A stretch of 64,000 nt of DNA from NCBI GenBank assembly GCA_944322635.1, contig CALUPL010000031.1, positions 1-64,000 of the forward strand. The letters run 5' to 3'. A model generated the notes under the pieces. That model worked only from the letters and a program-made list of their open reading frames with translations. It was not told where the DNA came from and did no database searches. This DNA comes from an uncultured Mailhella sp. (GTDB taxonomy: Bacteria > Desulfobacterota > Desulfovibrionia > Desulfovibrionales > Desulfovibrionaceae). The translations under genes were made by a program, and so were the position numbers. This document shows positions 28,147 through 58,145 of the stretch, piece by piece (the stretch's first letter is position 1; every line of letters starts with the position of its first letter).

Positions 28147-28461
28147 TGTATCGTCTGCTCTTCGTTCATCCGTCCTGTTGCGCAGCAACGACGTTTTCCG
28201 TCCGTTTCGGTGCGGAGGAATGCGCGCAGGGTTCCGTGCCGTATGCGGTCTTTTTCCGGGAGTTCCGGCGCAGGGCGTGAAGATGGCGGATGAGAAAAAG
28301 GACGAACGCTCTTTCGGCATGTCCGGAAGATGCGGGCGCGGCCGCGGGGCCGGAGCTTTGCGACGCTTTCTTTTTACGGATGCGCCCGGTCGGCGGCTCA
28401 TGGCTGAGGATCGCCTTCGGGCGTGTCTTTCCGACAAAGGAAAGTTGAACAAGAGGTTTCC
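28147..28461. other. Intergenic stretch upstream of the D-lactate-type dehydrogenase
   Basis: About 315 bp with no gene supported. Short frames here lack ribosome sites. No strong promoter pair was recognised. Confidence 0.4.
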
Positions 28462-31284
28462 ATGCAGAGCCAGGTTTTCTTGAATCAGGTGCGGGAGTTC
28501 CTGCCCTGGTCGCAGACGCATACCGGGGCGGCGGCAAAGATTTTTTCCGTCGATGCCGGTCCCTTTGAACCCCGCGCGTTTGCCGTTGTCGACGTCACTA
28601 CCTTCGAGGAGCTTGAACGGCTTCTTGCCTGCGCCGTCTCCTGCGGCGTTTCCCTTACGTTCCGGGGCTCCGGAACGTCCCTCAGCGGCCAGAGCGTGGC
28701 CGAAAACGTTGCGGTGCGCTTTCGCGGCCCCGCGTGGCGCAACATAGAAATTCTTGACGGCGGACGTCGCGTTTGCGCCCGCTGCGGCGTGACGGGCGGA
28801 GAAATCAACGCCGCCCTCGCTCCCTACGGCCGCTTCATCTCCTCCGATCCTTCCTCCATAGCCTCCGCCACCATAGGCGGCATGGCGGCCAACAATGCCG
28901 CCGGACTCGGCTGTACCGTGGCGAACAATATCTGGCATTCCCTGGAAGCCATGGAGTTCGTTCTTGCCGACGGCACGCGCGTGGATACTTCCGATCCGAA
29001 AAGCGTTGCGCAGTTCCGCAGTTCCCACGCCGAACTTCTGGAAGGTCTTTCTTCCCTGAGAACAAAGCTTCTGTCTTCTCCCGAAAACGCGGAAAAGGTG
29101 CGGCGCAAGTTCAAAATACGCAATACCTGCGGGTATTCGCTGAATGCGTTCACGGATTTCGAGGACCCGCTCGACATACTCGCGCATCTTCTCGTGGGAT
29201 CGGAAGGCACGCTGGGCTTCATTTACTCCGTCACGCTGCGGACCGTACCCGCGCTTCCCTTCCGCGGCACGGCCATGATGCTTTTTTCCTCCATGGACGA
29301 CGCCATGGCCGCGGTGCTCGACATTCGCGCCTGCCGCGGCCTTTATGCCGGAGAGTTTCTGGATGACATTTCCCTTCGCGGTCTGGCGGAACTTCCGGGA
29401 TTTCCCCGCGAGTTCCGGCCCGGCGGCGAGAGTTCCGACGACTGCGCCCTGCTCGTGGAAACAAGGGCTGCTGACGAAGCCTCCCTTGCCGCCGACATGG
29501 CGGAACTGGAAGAACGGCTTGAAGCGCATCGTCCCCGCGCCAGACTCGGCTTTGTGACTTCCCATGAAGAGTGCGAAAGGCTCTGGAACATACGCCGCGC
29601 CCTTTTTCCGGCCATGGCGGGCACGCGTCTGCCTTCGGAATACGCGTACGTCGAGGATTACTGCGTGCCTCTTGAACATCTGCCTCAGGCCAGTCACGGC
29701 CTCGTGAGCATTCTTCAGGATCTCGGCTTCGAACGCTGCGGCGTGAACGGGCATGCCCTGCACGGCAACCTTCACTGCACCGTGCCCCTTCGCCTTTCCG
29801 AAGCCTCGGAAGTGGAGCGGCTCGGCGTGTTCATCGAGCGTGCGGCCGAACTCATCCTTTCCCTGAACGGTTCGCTCAAGGCCGAACACGGCACCGGTCG
29901 TGCCGTTGCCTCCTTCGTGCGCAGAGAGTGGGGCGAGGAGCTTTACGGCATGATGCGCGACGTGAAAAGGCTTCTCGATCCTGCGGATGTTCTGAACCGG
30001 GGCTGCCTCATGAACGACGGCGCACGCTGCCATCTGGAAGGCCTCAAGTTCGTGGGAGCCGTGGGGCAGGGCATAGACCTCTGCGTGGACTGCGGTTTCT
30101 GCGAGTCCGTGTGTCCTTCGGCGCGCAGGGGCTTCAGTCCGAGACAGCGCATTTACGCCCTGCGCGCCGTGGCCGCGCTGGAACAGGCGGGCAAGACGGA
30201 CAGTGCCGCGGAATGGAAGGCTTTTTTCCTGTCCGACGGTCTTGATCTCTGCGCTGCGGACGGTCTTTGCTCCACCCGCTGTCCGCTCGGCATAGACGTG
30301 GCCGGCTTCATGCGCCGCCTCAGGCACGACAATCTCACGAGCAGGGAAAAAAAGGCCGCCTCGTTCGTGGCCGGGCACGTCGCGTCCGTGTCCCGCACCC
30401 TGTCTCTCGGACTGGATGCGGCGTACACGACACACAGAATTCTTGGTCACGAACTGGCGGTGAAGACCGGACTCGTCACGAAAAAGCTCATGGGCATGAC
30501 GTTGCCCGATCTGGTGGAAGTCGGTCTCAGGGGCTCTTCGTGCGTGCCCGCTCCAAAGACAAGGCGCGCGGAAAAAGTGGTGTATTTCCCCTCCTGCGCC
30601 GTGCGGAGCATGGGCTATGCCGGAGATTCCGGCCGAAGCGTGGAACCCCTCATGGATACGGCACTGCGCCTTCTGGAAAAGGCGGGCTACGAGGCCGTCA
30701 TTCCCCGCCATGTGGAAAAGCTCTGCTGCGGCAAGGCCTTTGAAACCAAGGGCATGAAGGAACAGGCAGACGAGTGCGCCGCCGCTCTGAACAAGGCTCT
30801 TCTGGAGGCCTCGGAAAACGGCCGCTGGCCGGTCATGTGCGATACCAGCCCGTGCCTTGCCAGAATGAAGAAAACGCTCGATGCTTCTCTTGCCCTGTAC
30901 GAGCCTGTGGAATTCACGCTGCGCTTTCTTGCCGACAGGCTGGAGTTCCATAAAAAATACGGTCGCATAGCCGTGCATGCCACATGTTCCACACGGAGCA
31001 TGGGCCTTGTGGATTCCCTTCTTGCCGTGGCGAGACTGTGTGCCCGTGAGGTGGTGCTGCCCGAGGGCATTTTCTGCTGCGGCTTTTCCGGGGACAAGGG
31101 ATTTGCCCGTCCCGAACTCAACGCAGCCGCGCTTGCCGGACTGCGGGAACAGGTGGCCGGTTGTGAGGCCGCCTTCAGCACTTCGCGCACCTGCGAGGTG
31201 GGGCTTACCCTGCACGGCGGACTGCCGTACCGCAATGTTCTCTATCTCGTTGATGAGTGCGGACAGGCCCGTTCCGTCCGCTGA
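28462..31284 (+). CDS. FAD/FeS D-lactate-type dehydrogenase with CCG domains
   Basis: The 940-residue protein fuses an FAD-binding PCMH domain (about 35-270) and a C-terminal FAD-oxidase domain to an iron-sulfur region and two CCG (HdrB-like) motifs. FAD-domain marks are FRGSGTSLSGQ and SSIASATIGGMAANNAAG; GHALHGNLHC and KAEHGTGRAVA mark the oxidase domain. A full 4Fe-4S site, CVDCGFCESVCP, lies near residue 540. The second, CAADGLCSTRCP near 596, has Asp in place of one Cys, a form I recall from related single-chain dehydrogenases. CCG motifs are LCCGKAF and FCCGFSG, with partner cysteines in PSCAVRS and ATCSTRS. It probably oxidises D-lactate or another 2-hydroxyacid and passes electrons to the membrane pool or a heterodisulfide-type acceptor. 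The start MQSQVFLNQ at 28462 follows an AGAGG site. A TRAP transporter follows on the same strand. Confidence 0.88.
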   Translation: MQSQVFLNQVREFLPWSQTHTGAAAKIFSVDAGPFEPRAFAVVDVTTFEELERLLACAVSCGVSLTFRGSGTSLSGQSVAENVAVRFRGPAWRNIEILDGGRRVCARCGVTGGEINAALAPYGRFISSDPSSIASATIGGMAANNAAGLGCTVANNIWHSLEAMEFVLADGTRVDTSDPKSVAQFRSSHAELLEGLSSLRTKLLSSPENAEKVRRKFKIRNTCGYSLNAFTDFEDPLDILAHLLVGSEGTLGFIYSVTLRTVPALPFRGTAMMLFSSMDDAMAAVLDIRACRGLYAGEFLDDISLRGLAELPGFPREFRPGGESSDDCALLVETRAADEASLAADMAELEERLEAHRPRARLGFVTSHEECERLWNIRRALFPAMAGTRLPSEYAYVEDYCVPLEHLPQASHGLVSILQDLGFERCGVNGHALHGNLHCTVPLRLSEASEVERLGVFIERAAELILSLNGSLKAEHGTGRAVASFVRREWGEELYGMMRDVKRLLDPADVLNRGCLMNDGARCHLEGLKFVGAVGQGIDLCVDCGFCESVCPSARRGFSPRQRIYALRAVAALEQAGKTDSAAEWKAFFLSDGLDLCAADGLCSTRCPLGIDVAGFMRRLRHDNLTSREKKAASFVAGHVASVSRTLSLGLDAAYTTHRILGHELAVKTGLVTKKLMGMTLPDLVEVGLRGSSCVPAPKTRRAEKVVYFPSCAVRSMGYAGDSGRSVEPLMDTALRLLEKAGYEAVIPRHVEKLCCGKAFETKGMKEQADECAAALNKALLEASENGRWPVMCDTSPCLARMKKTLDASLALYEPVEFTLRFLADRLEFHKKYGRIAVHATCSTRSMGLVDSLLAVARLCAREVVLPEGIFCCGFSGDKGFARPELNAAALAGLREQVAGCEAAFSTSRTCEVGLTLHGGLPYRNVLYLVDECGQARSVR

Positions 31285-31403: not shown

Positions 31404-31439
31404 ATGGATAATAATACGAATCAAAAGGTGCCGTGGTGA
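31404..31439 (+). other. Possible 11-codon leader frame overlapping the TRAP start
   Basis: ATG at 31404, preceded by AGGTGG, reads MDNNTNQKVPW and stops at 31437-31439 inside the first codons of the TRAP permease, which is in another frame. It may couple translation or be chance. Confidence 0.25.
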
Positions 31440-33421
31440 CGACGGAATCGGGAGATGTCGTCGCCAGCGCGGAAGAGCAGGCCAGAGCACAGGCTCTGGT
31501 GGAGGAAAAGGACAGCGAATCGAGAACAAGGCAGTTTCGCGGCGTGTTCGCCGGAGTTGTGGCCGTCATCTGCGTGGTGTTTTCTCTGTTCCAGCTGTAC
31601 GCGTCCGTGTTCGCCACCATGGACGCCATGAAACTGCGCTCGTTTCACATCATTTTTCTGCTTGTGCTTGCTTCTCTCATGTATCCGGCGTTTCGCCGCG
31701 AGAAGAGAGTTCGGGCTCTGCCCACGCTGTGGGATCTCGTGTGCGTGTGTGCAGGTGTGTACGCCTTCGGCTATCTCATTGTGCACTACGACGCCATTGC
31801 CATGAGCGGCGGCTGGTTTACCACTCAGGACTACGTGGTGGCCGGCATAGGCATTCTTGTGTCCTTTGAATGCGCGCGTCGCGTGGTGCCCAATCTTGCG
31901 GCTCTTGCGCTGGTTTTTCTGGCCTACACCTTCCTCGGCAGGTATCTGCCCGGAGCCTTCGGTCACGTGGGCTTCTCGCTGACCCGCGTGATGGATCACA
32001 TGTTCTGGGGCAGTCAGGGCCTTCTCGGCGTGGGCGTGGGCGTTTCGGCGACCTATGTGTTTCTTTTCGTGCTGTTCGGCGCGTTTCTGCGCATCAGCGG
32101 CTTCAGCGAGTTCATCAACGACCTTGCGCTCACGCTCGTGGGGCGCACCGCGGGCGGCCCCGCCAAGGTGTCCGTCATTGCAAGCGCCCTCATGGGCATG
32201 ATCAACGGCAGCGCTCTGGCCAATGTGGCCACTACGGGCGCCATCACCATTCCCCTCATGAAGAAGACCGGCTACAAGGCCGAGTTCGCCGGAGCCGTGG
32301 AAGCCGTGGCCAGCACGGGCGGTCAGTTCGCTCCGCCCATCATGGGCGCGGTGGGCTTCATCATGGCCGAGTTCCTCGGCGTGAGCTATACCAAGGTCAT
32401 GCTGGCGGCGGCCATTCCCGCGTTCCTTTATTATCTCGCTCTCATCATGGCCGTGCATTTCGAGGCCAGAAAGCTGGGGCTCAAGGGACTTTCCAAAGAG
32501 TATATTCCCGATGCCGTGCAGGTCATCAGAAAGCGCGGTCATCTCATCATTCCCCTTGTGGTGCTCATGGTCATCATGTTTATGGGCTACACCCCGCTTT
32601 TTGCCGCCGCCATGGCCATTTTCGCCACGGTTGCCGCCTCGTGGCTCTCCAGAGACACCCGCATGGGGCCGAAGCGCATTCTTCAGGCTCTTGAGGAGGG
32701 CGCGAAAGGCGCCGTGGGCGTGGGCGTTTCCTGCGTCATCATAGGTATCATCATAGGTTCCGTGTCCCTTACCGGACTCGGACTCACCTTCGGCTTCCAG
32801 GTGCTCAAGTACGTGGGCGAAGGACAGCTTTATCTCGGCGGCGTGTTCGTCATGATCATGAGCACCATTCTCGGCATGGGCGTGCCCGGCGTGGCGGCCT
32901 ACGTCATTGTGGCGGCCGTGGCCGTGCCCGTGCTTACCGGCGTCGGCGTGGAACCCATGTCCGCCCACATGTTCTGCCTGTTCTACGCCTGCCTCTCCAA
33001 CATTACGCCGCCGGTCGCCATGTCTTCCTATGTGGCCGCAGGCATTGCCAACTCCAATGAGACCAGAACGTCACTCATTGCCGTAAGGCTGGGACTCACG
33101 GGGTTCATTCTTCCGTTCTTCTTCCTCAATAATCCGCTTCTGCTTTACAGTTCCTCCAATCCGGGACTGGCCACGGTGTGGGCGTTCATTACGGCAAGCT
33201 TCGGCGTGTGCGCTCTGGCCGTGGGGCTTGAGCGCTGGCTGTTCGGGCCGTGCACCATCGTGCAGAGTCTCATGTTCGTGGCCGGAGCGGTGCTCACCAT
33301 CGATCCCGGGCTTTCCACCGACGCCATGGGCATTGCCGTCATTCTTGCGGCAACGGCCCTCAACCGCCGCTCCTCTTCCAAGAGGCGCGGGGCGGAAGCT
33401 TCCCCGGCAGGGGCGGACTGA
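31433..33421 (+). CDS. TRAP transporter fused permease (DctQM type)
   Basis: This 662-residue inner-membrane protein combines the small (4-helix) and large (12-helix) TRAP permease subunits, as is usual for TAXI-type systems. It has about 16 or more hydrophobic segments. Characteristic stretches are SALMGMINGSALANVATTG, ASTGGQFAPPIMGAVGF, STILGMGVPGVAAYVI and FYACLSNITPPVAMSSY. TRAP systems use Na+ or H+ gradients and a periplasmic receptor to import organic anions. The start is a GTG with AAAAGG about 4 bp upstream; no ATG exists in this frame before the stop at 31412. The receptor gene follows 66 bp downstream but is interrupted. Placement after a 2-hydroxyacid dehydrogenase suggests import of its substrate; this is inference. 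Confidence 0.92.
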   Translation: MVTTESGDVVASAEEQARAQALVEEKDSESRTRQFRGVFAGVVAVICVVFSLFQLYASVFATMDAMKLRSFHIIFLLVLASLMYPAFRREKRVRALPTLWDLVCVCAGVYAFGYLIVHYDAIAMSGGWFTTQDYVVAGIGILVSFECARRVVPNLAALALVFLAYTFLGRYLPGAFGHVGFSLTRVMDHMFWGSQGLLGVGVGVSATYVFLFVLFGAFLRISGFSEFINDLALTLVGRTAGGPAKVSVIASALMGMINGSALANVATTGAITIPLMKKTGYKAEFAGAVEAVASTGGQFAPPIMGAVGFIMAEFLGVSYTKVMLAAAIPAFLYYLALIMAVHFEARKLGLKGLSKEYIPDAVQVIRKRGHLIIPLVVLMVIMFMGYTPLFAAAMAIFATVAASWLSRDTRMGPKRILQALEEGAKGAVGVGVSCVIIGIIIGSVSLTGLGLTFGFQVLKYVGEGQLYLGGVFVMIMSTILGMGVPGVAAYVIVAAVAVPVLTGVGVEPMSAHMFCLFYACLSNITPPVAMSSYVAAGIANSNETRTSLIAVRLGLTGFILPFFFLNNPLLLYSSSNPGLATVWAFITASFGVCALAVGLERWLFGPCTIVQSLMFVAGAVLTIDPGLSTDAMGIAVILAATALNRRSSSKRRGAEASPAGAD

Positions 33422-33487: not shown

Positions 33488-34459
33488 ATGTACGGTAAGG
33501 TCCTTCTTTCCATGATGGCGGCCGTGTCCATGCTCTTCGGCGGCATTGAGGCAAAGGCCGCCGACCATGCGCCCGTGACCATCAGCATTCCCACCGCGGC
33601 CACGACGAGCACGCTGTATCCCATAGGCGCGGCCCTCGGCAATCTCTGGAGCACCAGGCTCCCCTATGTGAAGGCCAGCGTGCAGTCCTCCAAGGGCGGC
33701 GTGCAGAACCTTCAGCTGCTCAGCAGAAAGGATGCGCAGGTGTCCTTCGCCATTACCAGCATCACCTATCAGGCCATGAAGGGCCTCGACATGTTCAAGG
33801 GGCACGCCTATCCCGACGTGCGCATCATTGCCGGTCTCTACTAGAATCCCAACCAGGTCATCGCCCGCGCCGACAGCAACGTGAACACCCTTCAGGACTT
33901 CAAGGGCAAGGTGTTCGCTCCCGGCGTGGCCGGCGGCACCACCATCGGCGAAACGCAGGTGCATTTTGCCGCCGCCGGTCTCAAGTATCCGGGCGACATC
34001 AAGCCCCAGTACGTGGGCCCCGCCGAAGCCGGTGACCTCATGCGCAACAAGCAGCTCGACGGTACCTGGATCATGGCCGGTCTGCCCAACGCCGGCGTGT
34101 CCGAAATGTGCGCCACCGCCGACGGCCGCCTCGTGAACATCGACGACGCCACCTTCGACAAGCTCAGCAAGAACTACCCCTGGTACGCCAAGTTCCAGAT
34201 TCCCGCCGGAACCTATCCCGATCAGGACAAGCCCGTGCAGACCACGGCCGTGAAGATGATTCTCATTACCAACGCCTCCCTGCCCGAAGACGTGGTGTAT
34301 GATCTCACCAGGTGCTTCTGGGAAAATCAGGATCTGGTGAAGAAGTCTCACGCCGTCATGAAGGACATCTCTCTTGAAGGCGCCGTCACCGATCTTGCCG
34401 GCATTCCGCTTCATCCCGGTGCGGCGAAGTACTACAGGGAAGTCGGCGTGCTGAAATAG
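33488..34459 (+). pseudogene. TAXI-family TRAP receptor, interrupted by in-frame TAG
   Basis: Two reading frames in the same phase, 33488-33844 and 33845-34459, together encode a full TAXI receptor of about 323 residues. It has a signal peptide (MYGKVLLSMMAAVSMLFGG), AATTSTLYPIGAALGNLW and the C-terminal HPGAAKYYREVGVLK. The only break is TAG at 33842-33844, after IIAGLY and before NPNQVIARADS. The intact TAXI protein at 57168-58145 aligns across this point with no gap, so there is no indel. CAG (Gln) to TAG by one C-to-T change is the simplest origin. The 5' part has a good AGGAG site. As written, the product would stop after 118 residues and could not bind substrate. Alternatives are sequencing error, amber suppression, or a recent null mutation; nothing else in the gene has decayed. 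Confidence 0.85.
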
Positions 34460-34767: not shown

Positions 34768-35976
34768 ATGGCTAAGAACAACAAAGTTATCCTTGCGTAC
34801 TCCGGCGGTCTCGATACCTCCGTCATCCTCAAGTGGCTCATCGTCGAGCGCGGCTATGAAGTCATTACCGTCACCGCCGATCTCGGTCAGGAGGACGACC
34901 TTGACGGCGTGGAACCCAAGGCCCTCAAGACCGGCGCCACCAAGGCCTACATAGAAGACCTGCGCGACGAGTTCGCAAGCGACTACATTTATCCCATGCT
35001 TCGTTCCGGCGCCACCTATGAAGGCCGCTACCTCATGGGTACCTCCATTGCCCGTCCGCTCATTTCCAAGCGTCTCGTGGAAATCGCCCGCAAGGAGGGC
35101 GCCGGCGCCATCGCTCACGGCGCTACCGGCAAGGGCAACGATCAGGTGCGCTTCGAGCTGTCCATCAACGCCCTCGCTCCCGACATTCAGGTGATCGCCC
35201 CCTGGCGCGAATGGGACCTCATGAGCCGTACCGCTCTTACCGCCTTTGCCGAAAAGCACGGCATTCCGGTCAATTCCTCCAACAAGCACTACAGCATGGA
35301 CCGCAACATGCTGCACTGCTCCTTTGAAGGCAGCGAACTTGAAGATCCGTGGGAAGAACCCGGCCCGAACAGCTATGTGATGGCCGTGCCCGTGGAACAG
35401 GCTCCCAACGAACCGGAATACATCACCATCGGCTTTGAGAAGGGCGACGCCGTCACCCTGAACGGCGAACGCCTCACCCCCCGCGAAATGGTCATGACGC
35501 TGAACAAGATTGCGGGCAAGCACGGCATCGGCCGTCTCGACATGGTGGAAAACCGCTTTGTGGGCATGAAGAGCCGCGGCGTGTATGAAACCCCCGGCGG
35601 CACCGTGCTGCACATTGCGCATCAGGACCTCGAAGGCATCTGCCTCGACCGTGAGGCCCTCGCCACCCGCGAAACCATCATTCCCCGTTACGCCGCAGCC
35701 GTGTACAACGGCTTCTGGTTCTCGCCCGAACGCGAGGCCATGCAGGCCCTCATCGACCAGATGCAGCGCGGCGTGACCGGCGAAGTGCGCCTCAAGCTCT
35801 ACAAGGGCAATGCCTGGCCCGTGGGTCGTTATTCTCCCCACAGCCTGTACTGCCAGGACCTCGCCACCTTCGAAGAGTGCGCCACCTACGATCACAAGGA
35901 CGCCGCCGGATTCATCCGTCTGCAGAGCCTGCGCATCCGCGGCTATGCCGACCGCGTGAGCCGCTTTCTGAAGTAG
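34768..35976 (+). CDS. argG: Argininosuccinate synthase
   Basis: ArgG joins citrulline and aspartate with ATP to form argininosuccinate, the penultimate step of arginine synthesis. The 402-residue product has the pyrophosphatase P-loop [11 protein letters not shown] at the N-terminus. It also contains [24 protein letters not shown], the region with [20 protein letters not shown], and the usual C-terminus. Length is typical. GTGAGG precedes the ATG by about 7 bp. argH follows on the same strand after 210 bp with terminator-like structures between. Confidence 0.97.
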
Positions 35977-45252: not shown

Positions 45253-45335
45253 AACTCAGGAAAGGAAGAAAAACCGTTTTGCTTCCAGAAGCCGAAGGTA
45301 CAGGGCGTCCCGGACGAACGGAGGCGGGAATTTCG

Positions 45336-46079
45336 TCAGCTCGAAAGGTAGGGCACGACGCGCATGAACAGCGATGCGGCCGCCACGCCGAGCAGAATGA
45401 GCAGCGCGCTGTGGAAGGTTTCCTGCCGTATGCGTCTTGCAAGCGGACAGGCGCACAGAAATCCTGCCGCTGCGGCGGGAGCCACGAAGGAGGCGCTTTG
45501 AATGACCTCTTCCGTAAGAAGTCCGTGACTCACAATGACGATGAGACTGACGATGGTTGCCGGAGTGGAACTGGTAAAGAAGCCTCTGGCCTTGTTCTTC
45601 TCCATGCATATGAGTGAGGCGTACATGGCCATGACCGGCCCGTTGATGCCTATGGAGCCGCCGAAAAATCCGGCAAAGAATCCGCACACGTATTTCATGA
45701 CGGCGCGGGGAGCCATGCATGTGCCGAGCCAGTCCTGAACAAGCTGCACGATGATGTGCATGACGATGATGATGCACAGCAGAAGCTCCAGCACCTCCAT
45801 GTCCACGATCTTCAGAGTCCATACGCCGAGCAGAATGCCGGGAACCGCGGGCAGCCAGAATCCCAGAATTTCCTTCACGTTGATGTAGCGCCAGTAAAGG
45901 GTAAGGGACATGAGGCCGACCATGACGGAAGCAATGAAGCTTATGAGTATGACCGTTTTGGAGGAGACGAAAAGCGTGATGAGCGGCAGGGCTATGAGCA
46001 TGCCGCCCATGCCCGTGAGTCCGTTGATGAAGGCTCCGACGAACCATGCCGCGCCGATGATGAAAAGATCGCTGACCAT
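45336..46079 (-). CDS. TauE/SafE-family anion exporter, copy A
   Basis: The 247-residue polytopic inner-membrane protein has about eight hydrophobic segments and the family pattern AAWFVGAFINGLTGMGGMLIALP near the N-terminus and GFFGGSIGINGPVMAMY in the second half. Members export sulfite, sulfoacetate or similar anions, or act in sulfonate metabolism. In a sulfite-handling anaerobe this is plausible but unproven. Its neighbour at 46226-46969 is a paralogue of the same length, with long shared runs such as WLGTCMAPRAVMKYVCGF. The two are 146 bp apart on one strand and probably co-transcribed, copy B first. No strong ribosome site precedes the ATG. Confidence 0.85.
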   Translation of the reverse strand: MVSDLFIIGAAWFVGAFINGLTGMGGMLIALPLITLFVSSKTVILISFIASVMVGLMSLTLYWRYINVKEILGFWLPAVPGILLGVWTLKIVDMEVLELLLCIIIVMHIIVQLVQDWLGTCMAPRAVMKYVCGFFAGFFGGSIGINGPVMAMYASLICMEKNKARGFFTSSTPATIVSLIVIVSHGLLTEEVIQSASFVAPAAAAGFLCACPLARRIRQETFHSALLILLGVAAASLFMRVVPYLSS

Positions 46080-46225
46080 GACGTTTTCAGAAAAATGTGG
46101 GAGGTGGTGAATGATGTCGCCGGAGCGTGAGAAAAGAAACCTTCGGTGCGACGCAGGGCAGAGGCTGCCGGTCAGAAGTCGGAAGGGCGCGCTTCACGGG
46201 CAGGCGCGCCTGCGGAATTCCGAAG

Positions 46226-46969
46226 CTATCGGGTGAAGTAGGGCAGCAGCTGGAAGAACAGGGACACGGCGGCCACGCCGAGCAGAATGAGCAGCGCGTT
46301 GTGGAATGTTCCCTGACGGATGCGTTTTGCCAGAGGCCAGGCGCACAGAAAGCCGATGACGGCGGAGGGAGTCACCCATGACACGGTACGCAGAACGTGT
46401 TCCGTCACCAGTCCGTTGATGAGCAGAACGGTCAGACTTACGAACGAGGCCATCATGGAGCTTGTGAAAAAGCCTCTGGCTCTGTTTTTTTCCATGCACA
46501 TGAGAGACGCGTATATGGCCATGACCGGCCCGTTGACGCCCAGAGAGCCGCTGAAGAATCCCGCACCGAATCCGCAAACGTACTTCATGACGGCGCGGGG
46601 AGCCATGCACGTGCCGAGCCAGTCCTGAATGAGCTGCACGGTAATGTGCATGACAAGCAGAATGCAGAGAAAAAGTTCCAGCCAGGCGATGTTGACGATT
46701 TTCAGAGTCCACACGCCGAGCAGAATGCCGGGAACGGCCGACAGCCAGAAGCCGAGCACGTCCCTGAAGTTGATGTAGCGCCAGTAGAGCATGAGGCTCA
46801 TGAGGCCCACCATGAAGCCGGAAAGCATGCTGACGATGATGGCATCTTTGGAAGACGCGAAAAGCGATATGAGCGGAAGGGCTATGAGCGCCCCGCCCAT
46901 GCCGGTGAGTCCGTTGATGAACGCGCCTATGAACCAGGCCGCTCCTATGATGAGAATGTCGGTATCCAT
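46226..46969 (-). CDS. TauE/SafE-family anion exporter, copy B
   Basis: This 247-residue membrane protein parallels copy A segment by segment, with AAWFIGAFINGLTGMGGALIALP, VPGILLGVWTLKIV and WLGTCMAPRAVMKYVCGFG. The start MDTDILIIGAAW at 46969 aligns with that of copy A and has GAGG 6 bp upstream; a frame to 47125 would add an implausible tail. Differences cluster in the membrane helices after residue 165 (SSMMASFVSLTVLLINGL against SSTPATIVSLIVIVSHGL), which may alter substrate. It arose by tandem duplication. The two may work as one pump or on two substrates. Confidence 0.85.
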   Translation of the reverse strand: MDTDILIIGAAWFIGAFINGLTGMGGALIALPLISLFASSKDAIIVSMLSGFMVGLMSLMLYWRYINFRDVLGFWLSAVPGILLGVWTLKIVNIAWLELFLCILLVMHITVQLIQDWLGTCMAPRAVMKYVCGFGAGFFSGSLGVNGPVMAIYASLMCMEKNRARGFFTSSMMASFVSLTVLLINGLVTEHVLRTVSWVTPSAVIGFLCAWPLAKRIRQGTFHNALLILLGVAAVSLFFQLLPYFTR

Positions 46970-47122
46970 GACTGCCTCGGAAAAAGAGTGAGGCATGATT
47001 GTTATGCTTCCTCCGTCCGTTTGTAAATGAAAAAGGACACGCCCGGAGCAGGAAAGGGCAAAAGAGGAAGAAAAGCTGCGCGGACGAAACGGACTCTGCC
47101 ATGGCGCAGGGGGACTAAGGCG

Positions 47123-47153
47123 CAAAAAAGGCCGCCGGAATCTCCGGCGGCCT
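47123..47153 (-). terminator. Terminator of rubrerythrin
   Basis: AGGCCGCCGGA and TCCGGCGGCCT form a perfect 11-bp stem at 47129-47153, followed on the minus strand by TTTTTT. It lies about 33 bp past the stop. Confidence 0.92.
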
Positions 47154-57167: not shown

Positions 57168-58145
57168 TTACTTGATGAGGCCGGCTTCTCTGAAATACTT
57201 TTCCGCACCGGGATGGAAGGGAGCGGTGCGCCCTTCCAGAAGGCTTTCCCTGGTAATGGACGCAAGAGCAGGATGAAGGCTCTTGAATTCGTCGAGATTT
57301 TCCACAACTTCCTTGGTGATGGCATACACGATGTCGTCGGGAATGTCGGCGGAAGTGACGAAGGTGGCCAGCATGCCTATGGTTTCCACACTGCCGTCGG
57401 AGGCATTGGAGGCATCGGGATACTGGCTCATGTCGATGCTGGTTTTGGAGTAGTAGGGGCATTCCTTCAGCAGGTTGTCCATGCCCGTGATGGGAACGAT
57501 GCGGCACTTGCGCTTGCCGGCCGTGGCTTCCTTGATGTTGCCGTTGGGATGGCCCAGCGTATAGAAGAATCCGTCGATGCGTCCGTCCTGCAGGGTGTGG
57601 GGGGCGTCGGCGGGCTTGAGACCTTCGCCGCGGAAATCCTTGCCGGGTTCGAGGCCCACTTCCTTGAAGACCTGAAGGGCGTTGATGCGGTTGCCGGAAC
57701 CGGGATCGCCGAGATTGATCACCTTGCCCTTGACGTCGGCAAGGGTTTTGATGCCGGAATCCTCGGCGGCCACGAACGTGACGGCCTCGGGCGCGAGAGC
57801 GAACACGAAGCGCAGCTTGCTCACGGGCTTTCCTTCCCAGTCGCCTATGCCCTTGTAGGCCTGATACTGCGTGTCGGCCTGTGCGATGCCGAATTCAATG
57901 TCGCCGTTGTTGATGGCGTTGATGTTGAACTTGGAGGCTCCGGTGGACTCCACGCTGGCGCGGATGTCATAGACGTCCTTTTTGGCGTTGATGATCTTGG
58001 CAATGGCGCCGCCCGTGGGGTAGTACACGCCGGTAATGCCGCCGGTGCCTATGGTGACGAACTTGGCGGCCATGGCGCTGCCGACCAGAGAGCCGGAAAG
58101 AAGCATGGCCGTGCCGAGGGCGACGGCAAAGAATTTTCTGAACAT
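57168..58145 (-). CDS. TAXI-family TRAP receptor (intact)
   Basis: This is a periplasmic solute receptor, 325 residues. It has a signal peptide (MFRKFFAVALGTAMLLSG with cleavage near SAMAAK), the family start FVTIGTGGITGVYYPTGGA, and FGIAQADTQYQAYKGIGDW and KTLADVKGKVINLGDPGSG. The C-terminus is HPGAEKYFREAGLIK. The TAXI type often binds glutamate or other dicarboxylic or organic anions; the substrate is not evident. GGAGG precedes the ATG. It heads a minus-strand operon with permease and zinc-ribbon protein, opposite an ArsR regulator. Confidence 0.94.
   Translation of the reverse strand: MFRKFFAVALGTAMLLSGSLVGSAMAAKFVTIGTGGITGVYYPTGGAIAKIINAKKDVYDIRASVESTGASKFNINAINNGDIEFGIAQADTQYQAYKGIGDWEGKPVSKLRFVFALAPEAVTFVAAEDSGIKTLADVKGKVINLGDPGSGNRINALQVFKEVGLEPGKDFRGEGLKPADAPHTLQDGRIDGFFYTLGHPNGNIKEATAGKRKCRIVPITGMDNLLKECPYYSKTSIDMSQYPDASNASDGSVETIGMLATFVTSADIPDDIVYAITKEVVENLDEFKSLHPALASITRESLLEGRTAPFHPGAEKYFREAGLIK

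Follow-up and report, generated by a model that had tools for sequence, protein, structure and literature searches.

A TAXI-family TRAP receptor gene carrying a single in-frame amber codon in an uncultured Mailhella

What does one stop codon signify in a gene that is otherwise well preserved? The question arises in a 64,000-nt stretch of DNA, here called the window, from the gut bacterium Mailhella, known in this case from the metagenome assembly of an uncultured member (2.59 Mb, 112 contigs, 87.8% complete). At 33488-34459 the window holds a TAXI-family TRAP solute-receptor gene with a single in-frame stop. The frame begins at an ATG with a GGAG-like ribosome site in front of it and, counting its closing TAG, spans 324 codons. 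The TAG at 33842-33844 is its sole interruption; neither a frameshift nor a second stop is present. When the stop is read through, PF16868 is matched with 278 bits over residues 34-320 and TIGR02122 with 277.5 bits against a cut-off of 84.35, a full-length family match, and solved TAXI structures including 1us4 are matched with E-values down to 4e-39. The gene and the features to which it is compared below are as follows.

28423-31284, plus strand: intact upstream gene for an FAD-linked oxidase / 4Fe-4S / CCG-domain dehydrogenase of the 2-hydroxyacid dehydrogenase type (PF02913, PF01565, Fer4_8, CCG)
31421-33421, plus strand: intact cognate fused TRAP permease of the DctQM type, start approximate (TIGR02123 TRAP_fused, 621.8 bits, 31421-33418)
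33488-34459, plus strand: gene for a TAXI-family TRAP transporter solute-binding subunit, with one in-frame TAG (PF16868 and TIGR02122 on the read-through frame; 13 uninterrupted orthologues in the genus)
33842-33844, plus strand: in-frame amber codon, codon 119 of that gene (Tyr, as TAC or TAT, in 13/13 orthologues)
34768-35976, plus strand: intact downstream argininosuccinate synthase gene, argG (PF00764, PF20979)
57168-58145, minus strand: intact TAXI paralogue, 31-33% identical, with Pro at the aligned site (alignment)

The likeness to TAXI solute-binding proteins (TIGR02122 / PF16868; VcGluP, PMC11574862; TtGluBP, 1us4) lies in the full-length family match and in the fused TRAP permease next door, and the difference lies in the amber codon at position 119. 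The gene therefore has the profile and the adjoining permease of a TAXI TRAP receptor, while its frame, because of the TAG at 33842-33844, is not intact.

To which residue the stop corresponds was read from 19 Mailhella genomes, one per species, those with a name being uncultured members of the genus; a second genome of the source species was not found. An orthologue or close homologue is present in 13 of the other genomes at 62-94% identity; none is interrupted, although one is incomplete because its contig ends there. Seven full-length orthologues (91-94% identity) align to the read-through frame without gaps, confirming that it is open on both sides of the TAG, and of the roughly 100 TAXI matches in the 19 genomes only the gene at 33488-34459 contains an internal stop. 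At the site itself the codon is TAC in 11 and TAT in 2 of the 13 orthologues, encoding the Tyr of a GLYYNPNQ motif. Since all 13 encode Tyr with codons that are one substitution away from TAG, the change is one from Tyr to amber and lies in the third base of the codon, at 33844.

This reading replaces the one in a preliminary description of the locus, which had derived the stop from a Gln codon, CAG, by a C-to-T change at 33842. Tyr in all 13 orthologues, encoded by TAC or TAT, rules out CAG as the ancestor of the TAG, and the paralogue at 57168, with which the description had aligned the gene, gave no basis for Gln because its aligned residue is Pro. The alignment does cross the site without a local gap, as had been stated, but at an identity of only 31-33%. 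The comparison with relatives that the description proposed, run here within the genus, is what yielded 13 of 13 uninterrupted genes with Tyr, and it holds a lesson: where a stop has taken the place of a residue, that residue should be identified from orthologues and not from a paralogue of 31-33% identity.

Could the amber codon be read through, by pyrrolysine or by a suppressor tRNA, so that full-length receptor is made? The preliminary description thought this conceivable and was right that Bilophila, a relative of Mailhella, is reported to have a pyrrolysine system (PMC7593587). In our family sample the pyrrolysyl-tRNA synthetase PylS was found in one of 79 genomes, a match which also indicates that the search works. 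The same search left the source genome at a best score of 23.6 bits against the TIGR02367 cut-off of 178.15, in an assembly that is 88% complete, and the other two Mailhella of the sample likewise gave nothing over the cut-off (0 of 3 for the genus). No tRNA with a CUA anticodon occurs among the 51 tRNA matches of this incomplete assembly, so the proposed search of the genome for pylT and pylS returned neither component and gives the idea no support. TAG is moreover the commonest terminator, ending 12 of the 30 conserved window genes checked, the TAXI gene among them, and the amber is not conserved, the orthologues having Tyr in every case and never TAG. In-frame UAG codons read as pyrrolysine, such as that in MttB of Bilophila, are similar in that the stop here occurs in a relative of pyrrolysine users; unlike them, the Mailhella gene is accompanied by no PylS or tRNA-Pyl that we could find, has Tyr in its orthologues and does not encode a methylamine methyltransferase. 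We consider readthrough very improbable. A narrower form of it supposes that the 12% of the genome missing from the assembly contains, besides the absent tRNA-Tyr gene, a suppressor tRNA that would decode the amber and restore the full receptor; this form draws on the fact that no tRNA-Tyr was seen in the 88%-complete assembly, and we hold it to be more improbable still. More generally, a lone in-frame stop in a draft metagenome assembly is not in itself an indication of recoding.

Several tRNA-like sequences were inspected and set aside. The TCTAA pattern expected of a CTA anticodon arm occurred twice, once in a tRNA-Arg(TCT) and once in a similar sequence without an ARAGORN tRNA call. A weak tRNA match at G000:C41:13699-13774 was rejected as tRNA-Pyl: it is 93% identical to tRNA-Ala(GGC) and its anticodon is not read as CUA. 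This sequence, which ARAGORN does not call, is a degenerate tRNA-Ala copy in its own right, 93% identical to two tRNA-Ala(GGC) genes and 99% identical to a copy in the genome G012, and it may be a pseudo-tRNA that an integrated element left behind. A scan for viral contigs gave no match.

With decoding set aside as very improbable, the two options that the preliminary description had placed alongside it, a recent null allele and a sequencing error, provide the best reading of a single-base nonsense change in a gene that is otherwise intact. We give a little better than an even chance to a very recent, real base substitution that converted the conserved Tyr codon 119 of the receptor to amber and produced a null. 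Somewhat short of even, and a serious contender, is a base-call or consensus error in the draft assembly, under which the organism would have a normal Tyr codon and an intact receptor. The real null is thus slightly favoured over a one-base consensus error, and we infer both that the change exists in the organism, as opposed to the consensus, and that function is lost.

In favour of an error, the TAXI gene shows no decay elsewhere, the assembly is a draft (112 contigs, 87.8% complete), and the names of sister-genus assemblies give contig depths of only 4-6x, a figure taken from those assemblies rather than from this contig. Nonsense changes make up 2.9% of random substitutions in the gene (84/2898), and at this proportion roughly one spurious stop would be expected in a genome this large if consensus errors occurred at ~1e-5 per base. 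In a 112-contig metagenome assembly, an error in the consensus or an allele from a minority strain fits the same letters, which counts against a real null. Against an error, on the other hand, it must have fallen on a stop-making base, and no other clear false stops are seen in the window or in a sampled 751 kb, although this is compatible with low error rates. By homology, no other long window gene with conserved counterparts in syntenic relatives is interrupted by a stop; the remaining stop-containing matches are either short frames in antisense or extensions on the upstream side. When 751 kb of the genome was scanned for coding potential, again no second clear nonsense-broken gene emerged, and the candidates, on inspection, resembled antisense shadow frames or gene boundaries. 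The scan is a weak control, as its stricter form had a sensitivity of 47% and missed the focal stop itself. With no second clear broken gene seen in either the window or the 751 kb, the assembly shows no visible abundance of false stops.

If the stop is real, how old is it? Compared pairwise with the seven full-length orthologues, this copy has dN/dS values of 0.065-0.145; among the intact ones the values are 0.051-0.154. Singletons, counted as changes unique to each of seven genomes, are also distributed as in intact genes: after the stop there are 5 synonymous and 2 non-synonymous changes versus 34 and 13 in the others (p = 1.0), and before it 3 and 4 versus 20 and 6, a difference that is not significant (p = 0.16). 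By these measures no decay has accumulated beyond the stop. Because the post-stop singletons match those of intact copies, the stop, if real, would be too young for decay to have set in and hence very recent.

Whether such a null could be borne is a matter on which the genus offers two observations. Five of the 19 Mailhella genomes, including two that are 93% and 97% complete, yield no orthologue and only paralogues of at most 31% identity, from which loss of the receptor appears tolerable. Counting against a real null, the TAXI gene is kept under purifying selection in all closest relatives. Real or not, the locus is an ordinary one, a single-nonsense allele or an assembly error. With ordinary single-nonsense pseudogenes and null alleles it shares the one stop, the otherwise intact and conserved gene and the intact operon partner; nothing sets the Mailhella gene apart from them, and only its youth (or error) is notable.

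Were the substitution real, translation would end after residue 118, and the predicted product would consist of the signal peptide and about the first 90 residues of domain 1. A TRAP permease depends on its receptor, and for this reason the intact cognate permease would probably be left idle. The null would then be another case of a transporter that loses its receptor while the permease survives. The truncated product would be missing domain 2 altogether and the greater part of the ligand cleft, and solute binding is expected to be lost; VcGluP illustrates that the two domains of TAXI proteins close around the ligand (PMC11574862), and a receptor missing domain 2 should be unable to do so. Several in-frame GTG and ATG codons follow the stop, and re-initiation at one of them, for example GTG 33881, might be imagined to yield a functional C-terminal product. 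Such a product, however, would have no signal peptide and would lack a large part of domain 1, which would make it useless as a periplasmic receptor, and a convincing ribosome-binding site is absent before the first candidate starts. We regard functional re-initiation as scarcely credible, the least probable of the explanations considered here.

Turning from the truncated receptor to its surroundings, we find permease, receptor, argG and argH in the same collinear order in syntenic relatives. The permease ends with a TGA at 33419-33421 and is 92.9% identical to its orthologue in the genome G016, which is likewise without an internal stop. The dehydrogenase gene farther upstream (28423-31284), for which the NCBIfam GlcD and YdiJ models stay below cut-off, is a possible metabolic partner of the TRAP-TAXI pair. 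It is present in G002, G014 and G012 and absent at the corresponding collinear position of G016 and G015; the alignment with G016 passes from window position 28149 straight to 31308, and G016 has only ~80 bases in between. As this gene is present in some genomes and missing in others, the surroundings of the TRAP-TAXI pair are subject to turnover within the genus. Elsewhere in the window, two adjoining similar genes on the minus strand (45256-47125) are apparent tandem duplicates; both are found in G016, and each also matches the other's counterpart there, at 63-88% identity.
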